NCBI RefSeq assembly: GCF_013408335.1 | Contig: NZ_JACBZR010000001.1 | Span: 2,976,001-3,040,000, forward strand | DNA from: Nocardioides panzhihuensis | GTDB taxonomy: Bacteria; Actinomycetota; Actinomycetes; Propionibacteriales; Nocardioidaceae | Direction of reading: 5' to 3' | DNA: 64,000 bases | Part shown: positions 24,260 through 30,462 of the stretch, piece by piece | Layout of the letters: each line of letters opens with the position of its first letter | Position numbering within the stretch: the stretch's first letter is position 1 | Made by a program: the position numbers and the translations under genes | The notes under the pieces: generated by a model | Told to the model about the DNA's origin: nothing | Seen by the model: the letters and a program-made list of their open reading frames with translations, nothing else | Database searches by the model: none

Positions 24260-24937
24260 TCAAGGCGTTTCGTCGTCAAGCAGCGGCTGCAGCTGCGCCT
24301 GGATGGCAGCAGGGGTGGCCGTAGTACGCAGGACAACCACCGTCGAGGCGGACTCGAGGCCAACCGGCTGATAGCGCTCGAGAGCCACCCGCATCGCCTG
24401 GTCGAACTCACCTTCGGGGTCGGAGGTCTGGTCGCGGAGCCAGCGCCGGAGCACATAGTTGTGTGCGGTCACGAGGTCTGCGGCCAAGAGCTCGGCGCGA
24501 AGGTGGCCGTCGGGTAGGTCGGACATCCAGTCGCGGAGCCATCGCGTGAAGACTCGCTGATATTGCTGGATCCCGCCCGTCTCCCTGGCGCGAAGAGCAG
24601 GCACCGAACCGACGAGGCGATACCGCGCGCGCGCCATCTCCCCTTCGGCCACATAGTGGCGCAGCACGACCCGGGCGGCCTCGCTCAGCGCGACGGTTCG
24701 CGTGGCGGGGGTCGCTGCGGCCAGACGTCCGTCGATGCGGCCGAGCAGCAGGTCGTGCTCAGGGAAGATCACGTCGTCCTTGGATCCGAAGGCCCGGAAG
24801 AACGTCGTACGTCCCACCCCGGCGCGCCGCGCGATGTCCTCGGCCTTGGTCGCGTCGAAGCCTCGCTCTTCGAACAGCTCGTACGCCGCAGCGACCAGGC
24901 GTTCCTTGGTCGTCGCGGGTCGGGGCGTCTCGGTCAT
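24260..24937 (-). CDS. TetR/AcrR family transcriptional regulator
   Basis: A 225-residue regulator. The N-terminal HTH is TTKERLVAAAYELFEERGFD followed by ATKAEDIARRAGVGRTTFFRAFGSKDDVIF (about residues 8-60). The remaining helical domain would bind a ligand, likely an acyl-CoA given the neighbours. It diverges from the 3-hydroxybutyryl-CoA dehydrogenase gene across a 71-bp gap containing two copies of a 13-bp palindrome, the probable operator. The start ATG at 24937 is standard. Confidence 0.9.
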   Translation of the reverse strand: MTETPRPATTKERLVAAAYELFEERGFDATKAEDIARRAGVGRTTFFRAFGSKDDVIFPEHDLLLGRIDGRLAAATPATRTVALSEAARVVLRHYVAEGEMARARYRLVGSVPALRARETGGIQQYQRVFTRWLRDWMSDLPDGHLRAELLAADLVTAHNYVLRRWLRDQTSDPEGEFDQAMRVALERYQPVGLESASTVVVLRTTATPAAIQAQLQPLLDDETP

Positions 24938-24955
24938 GACTCGAAGTTACTTGAT

Positions 24956-24989
24956 GGTACGCCGTTCCGTCGATAAGGTACGGCGTACC
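24956..24989. promoter_or_regulatory. Paired 13-bp palindromic operator for the TetR regulator
   Basis: GGTACGCCGTTCC at 24956-24968 and GGTACGGCGTACC at 24977-24989, start-to-start distance 21 bp (two helical turns). The outer halves also form a perfect 11-bp inverted repeat (24955-24965 with 24980-24990). A possible -35 TTGATG at 24951 and -10 TAAGGT at 24974 with 17-bp spacing overlap the sites, so binding would block the dehydrogenase promoter. Confidence 0.7.
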
Positions 24990-25008
24990 AATATAGGGAA
25001 GGGTGCAT

Positions 25009-25860
25009 ATGAACGGGTTCAACAACATCGGCGTCGTCGGCGCAGGACTGATGGGCGCAGGCATCGCCGAGGTCGCCGCACGCGCCGGCAAGAACGTCGT
25101 CCTCATCGACGCCAACCCCGCTGCCGCCGAGGCCGGCCGCGACCGCTTGCGGACCTCCCTCGAGCGGGCGGAGGAGCGCGGGAAGATCACCGGGGTCGCC
25201 GAGATCCTGGAGCGCATCACCGTCGGCAGCGACCTCGAGGCGCTCGCCGACCGCGACCTGGTCATCGAGGCGATCATCGAGGACGAAGCCGCCAAGACGG
25301 CACTGTTCGCCCGGCTCGACTCGATCGTCACCGACCCCGAGGCCGTGCTCGCCTCCAACACCTCCTCCATCCCGATCATGAAGCTCGCCGTCGCCACGCA
25401 GCGGCCGGCGCAGGTGCTCGGGATCCACTTCTTCAACCCGGTCCCGGTCCTCTCGCTGGTGGAGCTGGTGCCCAGCCTGCTGACCGCACCGACCACCACC
25501 GATCGGGCTCGGGAGTTCGTCGAGAAGGACCTCGGCAAGCACCCCATCGACTCCCAGGACCGCGCAGGATTCGTGGTCAACGCACTGCTGATCCCGTTCG
25601 TGCTCTCCGCGATCCGAATGCTCGAGTCCGGGTTCGCCACCGCCGAGGACATCGACCAGGGCCTCGTACGCGGCGCCGCCCATCCCCAGGGGCCGCTGGC
25701 GCTCGCGGACCTCATCGGCCTCGATACGACCAAGGCCGTGGCCGAGTCGCTCTACGAGGAGTTCAAGGAGCCGCTCTACGCCCCGCCGCCGCTCCTGGCC
25801 CGCATGGTCGACGCCGGCCTGCTGGGCCGCAAGGCCGGCCGCGGCTTCTACCACTACTGA
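25009..25860 (+). CDS. 3-hydroxybutyryl-CoA dehydrogenase
   Basis: A 283-residue NAD-dependent 3-hydroxyacyl-CoA dehydrogenase oxidising 3-hydroxybutyryl-CoA to acetoacetyl-CoA. The Rossmann nucleotide loop is GVVGAGLMGAGIAEVAARAG, and the family motifs LVIEAIIEDEAAKTALFARL, SNTSSIPIMKLA and HFFNPVPVLSLVELVPS contain the catalytic His and following Asn. The C-terminal helical domain has DRAGFVVNALLIPFVLSAIR and GLLGRKAGRGFYHY. GGGAAGGG lies 5 bp before the ATG at 25009, which favours it over a GTG 6 bp upstream. The acyl-CoA dehydrogenase gene follows by 20 bp. Confidence 0.94.
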   Translation: MNGFNNIGVVGAGLMGAGIAEVAARAGKNVVLIDANPAAAEAGRDRLRTSLERAEERGKITGVAEILERITVGSDLEALADRDLVIEAIIEDEAAKTALFARLDSIVTDPEAVLASNTSSIPIMKLAVATQRPAQVLGIHFFNPVPVLSLVELVPSLLTAPTTTDRAREFVEKDLGKHPIDSQDRAGFVVNALLIPFVLSAIRMLESGFATAEDIDQGLVRGAAHPQGPLALADLIGLDTTKAVAESLYEEFKEPLYAPPPLLARMVDAGLLGRKAGRGFYHY

Positions 25861-25880
25861 ACCCCACCCAAGGACTCATC

Positions 25881-27041
25881 ATGACCGACGACTTTCCCTA
25901 TCTTCAGCTCGCAGACCACCACCACGACCTCCGCGACGCCGTACGCTCGCTCGCTGCGAACAAGATCGCCCCCTACGCCGCCGACGTAGACGCCGCCGCG
26001 AGGTTCCCCACCGAGGCCTACGACGCCCTTGTCGCCTCCGGACTCCACGCACCGCACGTGCCCGAGGCGTACGGCGGCGACGGCGCTGACGCCCTGTCCA
26101 CCTGCATCGTCATCGAGGAGATCGCGCGTGCGTGCGCCTCCTCGTCACTGATCCCGGCGGTCAACAAGCTCGGCAGCCTCCCGCTGATCCTCGCCGGCTC
26201 CGAGGACATCAAGCAGCGCTACCTGGCACCGCTCGCGGCCGGAAAGTCCACGTTCTCCTACGCCCTCTCCGAGCGCGAGGCCGGCTCCGACACAGCGTCC
26301 ATGAAGACCCGTGCCGTCCAGGACGGCGACCACTGGGTGCTCAGCGGCCAGAAGTCATGGATCAGCAACGCGGGCATCTCCGACTACTACACCGTCCTCG
26401 CCGTCACCGACCCCGACGGACGACGCGGCTCCAACATCAGCGCCTTCGTCGTGGAAAAGAGCGACGACGGATTCGCCATCGGCGCCCCCGAGAAGAAGCT
26501 CGGCATCAAGGGCTCCCCCACCTGCGAGCTGACCTTCGACGCCGTCTACCTCCCCGGCGACCGCATCATCGGCGAACCCGGAACCGGCCTCCAGCTCGCG
26601 CTCCGCACCCTCGACCACACCCGCATCACCATCGCGGCCCAGGCCGTCGGTATCGCCCAAGGCGCCCTCGATCACGCGACCGACTACGTCAAGGAACGCC
26701 AGCAGTTCGGCAAGCGCATCGCGGACTTCCAGGGGATCCAGTTCATGCTCGCCGACATGGCCATGAAGCTCGAGGCCGCCCGCCAGCTCGTCTACGTCGC
26801 CGCCGCCAAGTCGGAGCGAGACGCCAGCGACCTGAGCTTCTTCGGCGCAGCCGCCAAGTGCTTCGCCAGCGACGCGGCGATGGAGATCACCGTCGATGCC
26901 GTCCAGCTCCTCGGCGGCTCCGGCTACACCCAAGACTTCCCGCTCGAACGCATGATGCGTGACGCCAAGATCACCCAGATCTACGAAGGCACCAACCAGA
27001 TCCAGCGCGTCGTGATGGCGCGCCAGCTACTCAGCGCATGA
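25881..27041 (+). CDS. Short-chain acyl-CoA dehydrogenase
   Basis: A 386-residue FAD-dependent acyl-CoA dehydrogenase, likely for butyryl- or isobutyryl-CoA judging by context. The start ATG at 25881 (MTDDFPYLQLADHHHDLRDA) was chosen within a longer open frame. Signatures: ALSEREAGSDTASMKTRA, WVLSGQKSWISNAGISDYY, ERQQFGKRIADFQGIQFMLA, and the C-terminal LLGGSGYTQDFPLERMMRDA. The catalytic base is probably the Glu of ITQIYEGTNQIQRVVMARQL, as in bacterial and human short/medium-chain enzymes. The stop overlaps the next ATG by 4 bp. Confidence 0.94.
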   Translation: MTDDFPYLQLADHHHDLRDAVRSLAANKIAPYAADVDAAARFPTEAYDALVASGLHAPHVPEAYGGDGADALSTCIVIEEIARACASSSLIPAVNKLGSLPLILAGSEDIKQRYLAPLAAGKSTFSYALSEREAGSDTASMKTRAVQDGDHWVLSGQKSWISNAGISDYYTVLAVTDPDGRRGSNISAFVVEKSDDGFAIGAPEKKLGIKGSPTCELTFDAVYLPGDRIIGEPGTGLQLALRTLDHTRITIAAQAVGIAQGALDHATDYVKERQQFGKRIADFQGIQFMLADMAMKLEAARQLVYVAAAKSERDASDLSFFGAAAKCFASDAAMEITVDAVQLLGGSGYTQDFPLERMMRDAKITQIYEGTNQIQRVVMARQLLSA

Positions 27042-27370
27042 GCACCGCCACCGTCATCACCACTGCCGCCTTCTCGCACCCTGGGTACGTCGGCGGCCGG
27101 GCGACCGACGTACCCATCTCAGAGGTCCACGCCAAGAAGACCGGGACCATCACGACGCTCTGCGGCCAGTCGGCGCTGACCTGGTTCAAGTTCTGGGAGG
27201 TTCCTTTCGCCACTGTCCTCGGCAACCGATGCCCGCGCTGCGTCGCTGCCTTCGACGAGCTTCTCCAGGCCGAGGCGGACCGCAGGCGCCGCTCGTTCCA
27301 CCCCGCCCGGAAGGGCCGCCCGGCCGGAGGTAGCTCCCGAGCCCCAGGACGTCCAACTACGTTGTCGTAA
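27038..27370 (+). CDS. Small Cys-containing protein coupled to the acyl-CoA dehydrogenase
   Basis: A 110-residue protein of unknown function. Its ATG overlaps the acyl-CoA dehydrogenase stop (ATGA), indicating translational coupling. A possible zinc-binding set is visible: VHAKKTGTITTLCGQ with a His and Cys, then NRCPRCVAAFDELLQ with C-P-R-C. The C-terminal 35 residues are basic and Pro/Gly rich (SFHPARKGRPAGGSSRAPGR) and likely disordered. I recognise no named family. It ends 9 bp before the MarR-IcmF gene, so it sits inside the short-chain acyl-CoA operon. Confidence 0.6.
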   Translation: MSTATVITTAAFSHPGYVGGRATDVPISEVHAKKTGTITTLCGQSALTWFKFWEVPFATVLGNRCPRCVAAFDELLQAEADRRRRSFHPARKGRPAGGSSRAPGRPTTLS

Positions 27371-27379
27371 CCTGTCTGC

Positions 27380-30300
27380 ATGCGCGCCGACCAAGATCCC
27401 ATCCGTGAGGCACACAGGCAGTGGGTCAGTCACGACTGGGCCGACGCCGCCGACGGGATGGCGATGGTGACGTCGGTCGCGCGCGTGCAGCAGCTGCTCA
27501 TGGAGCGCATCGACACCGTGCTGCGGCCTCTGGACCTGACCTTCGCTCGCTACGAGGTCCTGCGGCTGCTGTCGTTCTCGCGCTCGGGACCAATGCCGAT
27601 GACGCGCCTGGGGTCGCTCCTCCAGGTGCACCCCACCAGCGTCTGGGCGGCCAAGGCGGTCACGGCCGACAGCGTCGTCTCGGGCGACAGGTTCGCCATC
27701 GCTCGCGCCATCACGGGTGCCGAGGCCGGCCAGCTGCCCGACGACGTCCTCTCCACCCTCAAGTCGGCAGCCGCCGCGCGACGTACGCCCGTTCTCGGCA
27801 TCACCGGAACCGGCGGTTCCGGCAAGTCGTCGTTGACCGACGAGCTGGTACGCCGCTTCCGGGTCGACCAGCAGGACAAGCTCCGCATCGCGGTCATCGC
27901 CGTCGACCCGACGCGACGCAAGGGCGGCGGCGCGCTGCTCGGCGACCGGATCCGAGCCAACTCCCTCGACGGAGACCGCATCTTCTTCCGCTCGCTGGCA
28001 ACCCGTGGCGCCCACGAGGTGCCCGAGCACCTCAGCGATGTCATCGACGTCATCAAGGCTGCCGGGTTCGACCTGGTCATCGTGGAGACGCCCGGCATCG
28101 GCCAGGGCGACGCGGCGATCGTGCCCTACGTCGACGCCAGCCTCTACGTCATGACTCCCGAGTTCGGTGCTGCCTCGCAGCTCGAGAAGATCGACATGCT
28201 CGACTTCGCCGACACCGTCGCCATCAACAAGTTCGAGCGCCGCGGCGCGATGGACGCGATGCGGGACGTCGGGCGTCAGTTGGTGCGCAACCGTGAGGCC
28301 TTCGACCAGCAGCCGGACCAGATGCCCGTCTTCGGCACCTCGGCCGCGACCTTCAACGACGACGGCGTGACCGCGCTCTACCAGCACCTCCGCGACGACC
28401 TGGCGAGCCGTGGCCTGCCGGTCACCGAGGGAGCTCTCACCGAGGTCGACGTCCGCCACTCCTCCGGCATCCGCCAGGTCGTACCCACCGACCGGGTGCG
28501 CTACCTGGCCGAGATCACCGAGGCCGTCCGCGGCTTCCATGCCCAGACCGAGCGGCTCGCCGCCGCGGCAGGACGCGTGCAGCGGCTGGAGATCGTCCAG
28601 GGCGAGCTCGTCGCCGCAGACAGCGAGACCTCGGGCGTCGACGACCTCCTCGAGTCCGCGCACCGTGACCTGCCCCACGAGGTCACCGACCAGATCGAGG
28701 CATGGCCGGCGATCGTGGACTCCTACTCGGGTGAGGAGCAGGTCGTGAAGGTGCGCGACCGCGAGATCCATACCCGCCTGACCCGTGAGTCGCTCTCGGG
28801 CAACCAGATCCCCCGCGTCGCGCTCCCGCGCTTCACCGACCACGGTGAGCTCGTCCGCTTCTGGCGTCGCGAGAACCTTCCCGGCTACTTCCCCTACACC
28901 GCCGGGGTGTTCCCGTTCAAGCGCGACGGCGAGGACCCGGCGCGGATGTTCGCCGGCGAGGGTGACCCGGCGCGTACCAACCGGCGTTTCAAGATCCTGA
29001 GCCAGGACGGCGACGCGACCCGCCTCTCCACCGCGTTCGACTCGGTCACTCTCTATGGGCGCGACCCGGATCTGCGCCCGGATATCTACGGCAAGGTCGG
29101 CACCTCCGGCGTCTCGGTGGCGACGCTCGACGACATGAAGGTGCTCTACGACGGCTTCGACCTCGTCTCCCCCACGACCTCGGTGTCCATGACCATCAAC
29201 GGACCCGCGCCGACCGTGCTGGCGTTCTTCCTCAACACCGCCATCGACCAGCAGGTCGCCAGGTTCGTCGATCAGGAGGGCCGGCAGCCGTCCAAGGCGG
29301 AACACGACGAGCTCGTCGCGTACGCCATGGCGAACGTGCGCGGGACCGTGCAGGCCGACATCCTCAAGGAGGACCAGGGCCAGAACACCTGCCTGTTCTC
29401 CACCGAGTTCTCGCTGCGGATGATGGCCGACATCCAGGAATGGTTCATCCAGCAGCAGGTCCGCAACTTCTACTCGGTCTCGATCTCCGGCTATCACATC
29501 GCCGAGGCCGGGGCGAACCCGATCAGCCAGCTCGCGTTCACGCTCGCCAACGGCTTCACCTACGTCGAGGCGTACCTGGCTCGCGGCATGGACATCGACG
29601 ACTTCGCACCCAACCTGTCCTTCTTCTTCTCCAACGGCATGGACCCCGAATACTCCGTGCTCGGCCGCGTCGCACGCCGCATCTGGGCGATCACGATGAA
29701 GGAGAAGTACGGCGCGAACGAGCGCTCGCAGAAGCTGAAGTACCACGTCCAGACCTCCGGCCGGTCCCTGCACGCACAGGAGATGGACTTCAACGACATC
29801 CGCACCACGCTGCAGGCCCTGATCGCGATCTACGACAACGCCCAGTCACTGCACACCAACGCCTACGACGAGGCCGTCACGACACCCACCGAGGAGTCCG
29901 TACGCCGAGCGCTCGCGATCCAGCTCATCATCAACCGCGAGTGGGGCCTCGCCATGAACGAGAACCCACTCCAGGGCTCGTTCATCATCGACGAGCTCAC
30001 CGACCTGGTGGAGAGCGCCGTGCTCACCGAGTTCGACCGCATCAACGAACGCGGCGGCGTGCTCGGCGCGATGGAGACCGGCTACCAGCGCGGCAAGATC
30101 CAGGACGAGTCGATGCTCTACGAGCACCGCAAGCACGACGGGACGCTGCCCATCATCGGCGTCAACACCTTCGTCAAGCCCGACTCCGACGCCTCCCCCG
30201 TCGAGATCGAGCTGGCACGCGCCACCGAGGCCGAGAAGGACTCCCAGCTGCGGCGCGTACACCAGTTCCAGGAGACGCACCGCGACGAGGCCGCCAAGGC

Positions 30301-30439
30301 CATCGCCCGCCTCAAGGACGCGGCCGTCGCCGGGGACAACGTCTTCGCGGTCCTCATGGACGCCGCCCGAGTCTGCACCCTCCAGCAGGTGACCGAGGCG
30401 TTCTTCGAGGTCGGCGGGCAGTACCGACGCAACGTCTGA
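27380..30439 (+). CDS. Isobutyryl-CoA mutase/G-protein chaperone (IcmF) fused to a MarR N-terminal half, lacking the B12-binding domain
   Basis: IcmF interconverts isobutyryl-CoA and butyryl-CoA with adenosylcobalamin; its middle domain is a GTPase chaperone. Here residues 1-88 are instead the first half of a MarR regulator (MVTSVARVQQLLMERIDTVL, FARYEVLRLLSFSRSG, MTRLGSLLQVHPTSV). From about residue 93 the IcmF sequence runs normally: P-loop GITGTGGSGKSSL (139-152), AVDPTRRKGGGALLGDRI, ETPGIGQGD, NKFE, then the mutase barrel. AGVFPFKR and DQGQNTCLF carry the Phe and Gln expected for isobutyryl-CoA specificity. The N-terminal cobalamin domain (D-x-H-x-x-G) is absent, and length is 1019 against about 1080. 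An in-frame deletion joining a marR gene to icmF is the simplest reading. Activity would need B12-domain supply in trans; otherwise it is inactive. Confidence 0.85.
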   Translation: MRADQDPIREAHRQWVSHDWADAADGMAMVTSVARVQQLLMERIDTVLRPLDLTFARYEVLRLLSFSRSGPMPMTRLGSLLQVHPTSVWAAKAVTADSVVSGDRFAIARAITGAEAGQLPDDVLSTLKSAAAARRTPVLGITGTGGSGKSSLTDELVRRFRVDQQDKLRIAVIAVDPTRRKGGGALLGDRIRANSLDGDRIFFRSLATRGAHEVPEHLSDVIDVIKAAGFDLVIVETPGIGQGDAAIVPYVDASLYVMTPEFGAASQLEKIDMLDFADTVAINKFERRGAMDAMRDVGRQLVRNREAFDQQPDQMPVFGTSAATFNDDGVTALYQHLRDDLASRGLPVTEGALTEVDVRHSSGIRQVVPTDRVRYLAEITEAVRGFHAQTERLAAAAGRVQRLEIVQGELVAADSETSGVDDLLESAHRDLPHEVTDQIEAWPAIVDSYSGEEQVVKVRDREIHTRLTRESLSGNQIPRVALPRFTDHGELVRFWRRENLPGYFPYTAGVFPFKRDGEDPARMFAGEGDPARTNRRFKILSQDGDATRLSTAFDSVTLYGRDPDLRPDIYGKVGTSGVSVATLDDMKVLYDGFDLVSPTTSVSMTINGPAPTVLAFFLNTAIDQQVARFVDQEGRQPSKAEHDELVAYAMANVRGTVQADILKEDQGQNTCLFSTEFSLRMMADIQEWFIQQQVRNFYSVSISGYHIAEAGANPISQLAFTLANGFTYVEAYLARGMDIDDFAPNLSFFFSNGMDPEYSVLGRVARRIWAITMKEKYGANERSQKLKYHVQTSGRSLHAQEMDFNDIRTTLQALIAIYDNAQSLHTNAYDEAVTTPTEESVRRALAIQLIINREWGLAMNENPLQGSFIIDELTDLVESAVLTEFDRINERGGVLGAMETGYQRGKIQDESMLYEHRKHDGTLPIIGVNTFVKPDSDASPVEIELARATEAEKDSQLRRVHQFQETHRDEAAKAIARLKDAAVAGDNVFAVLMDAARVCTLQQVTEAFFEVGGQYRRNV

Positions 30440-30462
30440 CCGCGCAGACCTCGTCACGCAAC

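Follow-up and report, generated by a model that had tools for sequence, protein, structure and literature searches.

A truncated MarR regulator joined in frame to an IcmF mutase without its B12-binding domain in Nocardioides panzhihuensis: a deletion product and probable young pseudogene

Main finding

The window analysed here, by which we mean the whole 64,000-nucleotide stretch of DNA from Nocardioides panzhihuensis, contains a long chimeric gene in which the beginning of a MarR-type regulator runs, without interruption of the reading frame, into an IcmF (isobutyryl-CoA mutase) that has lost its B12-binding domain. Comparison with an intact copy of the same cassette elsewhere in the genome shows that this chimera arose by a 760-bp deletion in a second cassette copy. 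In the most likely reading, the deletion was recent, struck a redundant copy of a 6.2-kb cassette and left a mutase-inactive product, which makes the gene a probable young pseudogene.

The chimeric gene and its domains

The chimeric frame (27380..30439, plus strand) is open throughout its 1019 codons, and its composition, a MarR start followed by a B12-less IcmF, is confirmed as real. The MarR part, residues 1-88 (27380..27643, plus strand), ends at the start of the recognition helix and has 90.9% amino acid identity to the genome's own intact 171-aa MarR (L049:9264-9776, minus strand), which is called MarR by Pfam. Residues 25-89 align with PDB 4b8x, which its depositors describe as a possible MarR regulator, at an E-value of 6.8e-17. 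Likeness to the intact MarR stops at residue 88, short of a full winged helix-turn-helix with its recognition helix and wing, and the MarR part of the chimera is too short to be called MarR by Pfam.

The IcmF part starts at W89 and comprises residues 145-1075 of the intact progenitor protein described below, plus the stop codon (27644..30439, plus strand), with 92.8% amino acid and 89.9% nucleotide identity to it. It has the GTPase and mutase domains without the B12 domain. The NCBIfam IcmF profile (NF045497) aligns residues 89-1019 with its positions 138-1076 of 1076 and scores 1664.5 bits, above the equivalog cut-off of 1500 bits, and leaves profile positions 1-137 unmatched. A Pfam search of the chimera gave no match to the B12-binding domain (PF02310), and a motif search found no D-G-H-D. 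An earlier note, made from the letters alone, had read residues 1-88 as a MarR start followed by IcmF and had found the B12-binding domain missing from the frame, and both readings are borne out by these matches. It had also reported that D-x-H-x-x-G is absent: the absence of a cobalamin motif stands, but not the form given to it, which in the genome's intact IcmFs reads D-G-H-D-A-S/A.

The MeaB-like GTPase domain (27701..28393, plus strand; Pfam PF03308, residues 108-338) is present, with the P-loop GTGGSGKSS at residues 143-151 and the base-recognition loop NKFE. The equivalent of switch III, residues 259-270 with the sequence TPEFGAASQLEK (28154..28189, plus strand), is identical to the progenitor, and the equivalent of the wedge helix, residues 288-305 (28241..28294, plus strand), differs from it solely by K291M, at a variable position; both were placed by transferring published numbering via an alignment to PDB 4xc6, with an assumed tag offset of 20 residues. 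The substrate-binding mutase domain (28868..30412, plus strand; Pfam PF01642, MM_CoA_mutase, residues 497-1011) forms a complete barrel, the alignment reaching the last residue of 4xc6. A structure prediction of the chimera was too poor for use (mean pLDDT 56.2, pTM 0.43, with blocks of residues 1-90 at 32-47).

The deletion join and its intact progenitor

The genome, 6.3 Mb in three contigs, carries an intact tetR-hbd-acd-marR-icmF cassette at C1:1445952-1452790 (L049), on the strand opposite to the window. In this progenitor, which has the same gene order as the window block, marR encodes 171 aa and icmF 1075 aa. Nucleotide identity between the two copies is 87% over 24260-27035, 84% over 27343-27642 and 90% over 27651-30443. 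In a register comparison, the left-register match ends at 27642 and the right-register match starts at 27644, which places the deletion join at 27642..27644 (plus strand), with 760 bp of the progenitor gone and at most one base common to both registers. This agrees with the in-frame join near 27644 that had been proposed, and likewise with the origin suggested for it, in which several hundred base pairs were deleted, reaching from the second half of marR into the first part of icmF.

In progenitor coordinates, marR accounts for 252 of the missing 760 bp (codons 89-171 together with its stop) and icmF for 432 bp (codons 1-144); the remainder is all 76 bp between the two genes. The register comparison of both sides found no repeat at the ends of the join; because at most one base is common to the two sides, no repeat is available to account for the deletion. 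The progenitor's marR and icmF lie in different frames and 760 is not a multiple of three, and the in-frame outcome is a one-in-three chance.

The duplicated block and the age of its two copies

Three further genes of the window block have counterparts in the progenitor cassette. The first gene, tetR (24260..24937, minus strand), has 84.9% amino acid identity to the L049 copy, and it is followed by a 3-hydroxyacyl-CoA dehydrogenase-like gene (hbd; 25003..25860, plus strand; 91.9%) and an acyl-CoA dehydrogenase-like gene (acd; 25881..27041, plus strand; 90.2%), the latter two named by reading. Between acd and the chimera lies an open reading frame of 110 aa (27038..27370, plus strand), held by a segment of about 300 bp (27036-27342) that is unmatched at the corresponding place in the progenitor block. 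This frame has no Pfam match at E 0.01. It shows a C-G-Q...C-P-R-C pattern and has weak relatives elsewhere in the genome, one of them (C1:559100-559261) adjoining an icmF relic.

In a tree of 32 loci, which does not include an icmF of the genus genome G218, the window and progenitor icmF genes are sisters with support 1.000. G218 (locus L156) carries tetR-hbd-acd, with no marR-icmF match within the 14 kb examined there. Its tetR-hbd-acd is 90.8% identical to the progenitor copy versus 87.8% to the window copy. For the left half of the block, a recent duplication within this genome does not hold up, the G218 copy being nearer to the progenitor copy than to the window copy; given this comparison, the window and progenitor copies would be older paralogues, or one of them was acquired from elsewhere.

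Rarity of the fusion

A 67-residue query spanning the join found it in one of 215 genus genomes and one of 394 genomes of a class sample, the own genome counted in each case and both counts referring to the matches listed. The matches are ordered by E-value, and an end-to-end match would rank near the top; the query detects a fusion at this place and not at quite different ones. The other matches listed either begin from the MarR end of the query or stop where IcmF starts. Several cross the join at low identity: a 170-aa frame of G111, for instance, matches residues 1-59, and the genome's own icmF relic matches residues 8-67. The earlier note had named an identical fused start in many species as an observation that would speak against its reading; the start was found in this genome alone, among the matches listed in the 215 and 394 genomes.

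The usual arrangement was examined in 109 icmF loci, 29 from relatives and 80 from named genomes, two sets that probably share genomes, the 107-110 loci counted in this work being not all independent. A marR homologue lies upstream on the same strand in 34 of the 109 (one partial), never closer than 400 bp to the IcmF core; in 16 it has another position or the opposite orientation, and in 59 the stretch examined contains none. The B12 domain is present in all 108 other loci tested (28 of the 29 relatives' and all 80 named). In the remaining relative's locus, L048 of genome G023, icmF occupies two overlapping frames, a frameshift or sequencing error, and this locus was dropped before the alignments and from the count of 108.

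Other icmF copies and B12-binding proteins

Three other full-length icmF genes are present in the genome, namely the progenitor and those at C1:3040333 and C1:4393660, and all three are closely preceded by a marR homologue in the same orientation. The icmF at C1:3040333, with its own 162-aa marR, lies 333 bp past the right end of the window (L050, 2331-5474, minus strand). The strain's isobutyryl-CoA mutase, proposed earlier to be either lost or complemented in trans, is therefore not lost and needs no complementation. A further icmF is a fragmented relic (L052, C1:559-561 kb) with pieces in several frames, and no marR homologue was found within the surrounding 11 kb. The presence of this relic beside three intact IcmFs indicates that icmF copies decay in this genome.

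The search for further icmF or IcmB-like genes, suggested in the earlier note, gave the three full-length icmF genes already mentioned and, in nine of the ten PF02310 matches of the genome (a 1254-aa frame being left out), no stand-alone B12 subunit of the IcmB type. These ten matches comprise the three IcmFs, two methylmalonyl-CoA-type mutases, the 1254-aa frame, a lysine 5,6-aminomutase beta subunit, a CarH-like regulator, a fragment of such a regulator and the icmF relic. The fragment (L017, C1:3743925-3744161) repeats, in truncated form, part of the gene for the CarH-like B12 regulator in L016; by eye, about 120 residues of the two are nearly identical.

An operator-like palindrome upstream of icmF

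In 84 of 107 loci, the palindrome TWGGAYRTCCWA lies no more than 250 bp ahead of the icmF start, an exact match being absent in the other 23; L087 was left out of this count, its upstream stretch being too short. It is doubled in 14 loci, with a spacing of 23-25 bp in 12 of them. The background is low: the rest of the same loci, 982 kb, holds seven matches, and the reversed pattern has none upstream. Judged from these occurrences, TWGGAYRTCCWA upstream of icmF across actinobacteria is a candidate operator of this MarR type, and the palindrome offers both a testable operator and a target for this MarR family. PDB 4b8x is Sco5413, a member of this family. A literature search found no paper joining Sco5413 and icmF. 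The 2013 structure paper on Sco5413 gives its function as unknown in its title, as cited in PMC3737563.

In the whole genome, exact TWGGAYRTCCWA is found in only two places, the marR-icmF intergenic region of the progenitor and a site 58 bp before the start of the icmF match at 4393660. The intergenic region that the window copy has lost contains, in the progenitor, two operator-like palindromes, ATGGATGTCCTA (one mismatch to TWGGAYRTCCWA) and TAGGACATCCAA. The window retains an operator-like palindrome, CAGGACGTCCAA (27345..27356, plus strand), which has one mismatch to TWGGAYRTCCWA and starts 35 bp before the chimera, a degree of match that arises by chance at least once per window in 30 of 100 shuffled windows.

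Selection on the remaining core

Between the window and progenitor copies, the IcmF core has a dN of 0.042 and a dS of 0.362, a ratio of 0.115, which resembles the ratios of the neighbouring genes (0.173 for hbd, 0.134 for acd and 0.100 for tetR); most of this divergence may predate the fusion. From W89 on, the core has neither stop nor frameshift. Within residues 93-1019, 476 positions are the same in 98% or more of 110 other IcmFs, and the chimera differs at none of them (one of the 110 deviates at 26 positions and was retained), and residue states absent from all 110 number five in the chimera versus four in the progenitor. When changes were polarised with 12 relatives' loci, at least 75% agreement being required, the window copy had 29 non-synonymous to 42 synonymous changes versus 22 to 73 in the progenitor (Fisher p 0.018), an excess of amino acid change that may point to relaxed constraint on the window copy, although no conserved position is hit.

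In a neutral simulation, with sites chosen uniformly and indels ignored, the probability of hitting no conserved position and creating no stop dropped under 5% once free substitutions numbered between 6 and 8. A dead gene would thus imply a recent fusion, because fewer than about 8 free substitutions are compatible with the intact core against 71 polarised changes. Either the fusion would fall within roughly the last tenth of the window copy's changes, or the core is still selected. Recency is favoured because the amino acid excess points to relaxation and because the IcmF mechanism needs the chain's own B12 domain.

Proposed origin and alternative readings

The explanation that we prefer starts from the second copy of the 6.2-kb cassette (tetR, hbd, acd, marR, icmF) in the window. 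As the comparison of the copies shows, a single deletion without end repeats took the recognition helix and C-terminal half of MarR, the DNA between marR and icmF together with the operator-like palindromes in it, and the entire B12-binding domain, leaving the frames joined. Transcription of the chimera would presumably start from the old marR promoter, as homology to the progenitor persists for about 37 bp ahead of the start. The predicted product combines an incomplete MarR stub with a GTPase domain and a substrate barrel that are both intact. In Cupriavidus IcmF, according to PMC10481361 and PMC9974510, the B12 domain and the barrel enclose the cofactor between them, and for loading they are wedged apart by the G domain of another molecule. 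Without its B12 domain, the chimera should not hold adenosylcobalamin; on the known mechanism of the family, it should therefore have no mutase activity. The loss would be tolerated because three intact IcmF paralogues remain, and the gene would be a young and redundant pseudogene in which stops and frameshifts have yet to accumulate.

A different kind of explanation would make the chimera an artefact of assembly or sequencing, the locus truly holding intact marR and icmF. The genome does contain four similar marR-icmF regions, a type of repeat that can confuse an assembler, but the two copies are only about 90% alike (90% DNA identity to the nearest paralogue), no repeat is common to the sides of the join, and the contig has a length of 6.13 Mb. 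The first two of these points make an assembly error unlikely, and we regard an artefact of either kind as quite improbable. Two-subunit mutases of the IcmA and IcmB kind are known, and a mutase half that is active with a B12-binding subunit supplied in trans would fit the presence of the 2-hydroxyisobutyryl-CoA mutase large subunit among the chimera's PDB matches. The ten PF02310 matches in other frames count against such an arrangement, which is very doubtful, no candidate being found in the nine considered once the 1254-aa frame is left out. The earlier note had further offered a regulator-GTPase-mutase chimera with a new role, a reading that is weak because no complete DNA-binding domain remains past the start of the recognition helix. 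As a DNA-binding sensor, the protein could draw on the retained MarR start, the approximately 37 bp kept upstream and the operator-like site with one mismatch, but the join falls at the recognition-helix start, Pfam does not recognise MarR in the chimera, and the helix, wing and C-terminal dimerisation helices have been lost, an architecture taken from PMC3737563 on the MarR protein SCO3205. DNA binding is not expected of a stub lacking these elements, and we give the sensor reading hardly any credence.

The chimera might instead function in trans, either helping the intact IcmF paralogues to load their cofactor by serving as a wedge or poisoning the mixed dimers that it forms with them. Its switch III (259-270) and wedge-helix (288-305) equivalents are retained, its core is unchanged at conserved positions and candidate partner IcmFs are encoded in the same genome; moreover, wedging by the G domain and oligomerisation of IcmF dimers via their G domains during cofactor loading are described for the Cupriavidus protein in PMC10481361. 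Set against this are the B12 domain in 108 of 108 other icmF loci, the absence of the join from any other genome among the matches listed and the excess of amino acid changes on the window copy. In addition, switch I contacts the B12 domain of the same chain in IcmF (PMC9974510), and in the chimera the MarR stub stands where that contact domain would be. On balance, a role in trans is unlikely. Its more specific form, in which the deletion made a working modulator, a B12-less IcmF protomer expressed from the old marR promoter that joins intact IcmFs by G-domain or barrel contacts and either wedges them open for loading or poisons mixed dimers, we hold to be distinctly unlikely. A young pseudogene left by a recent deletion is the probable reading.

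Significance and comparison with known systems

The locus illustrates how a single deletion without repeats in a spare operon copy can yield a large in-frame chimera. The product scores above the NCBIfam IcmF cut-off despite the missing cofactor domain and constitutes an annotation trap. If functional, it would be a natural B12-less IcmF with which the loading role of the G domain could be parted from catalysis, and if the modulator reading were true, it would represent a natural split of chaperone and cofactor roles inside one enzyme family. No paper linking mutase, fusion, MarR and cobalamin-binding domain was found in a literature search; PMC6767563, found for isobutyryl-CoA mutase and MarR, treats a different subject.

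Four known systems invite comparison. The chimera resembles IcmF (NF045497; PDB 4xc6) in the GTPase domain, the linker and the substrate barrel over residues 89-1019, but has a MarR stub where IcmF has its N-terminal B12-binding domain. It matches MarR of the 4b8x type in the N-terminal half of that protein, over residues 25-89, but lacks the recognition helix, wing and C-terminal dimerisation helices. With the large subunit of 2-hydroxyisobutyryl-CoA mutase (PDB 4r3u) it shares a match over residues 499-1016; that enzyme works with a separate small B12 subunit. Finally, the MeaB/MMAA GTPase chaperones and the chimera have in common a G domain with P-loop and switch III equivalents, whereas in the chimera the G domain is fused to the mutase barrel and lacks a B12 domain partner in the same chain.
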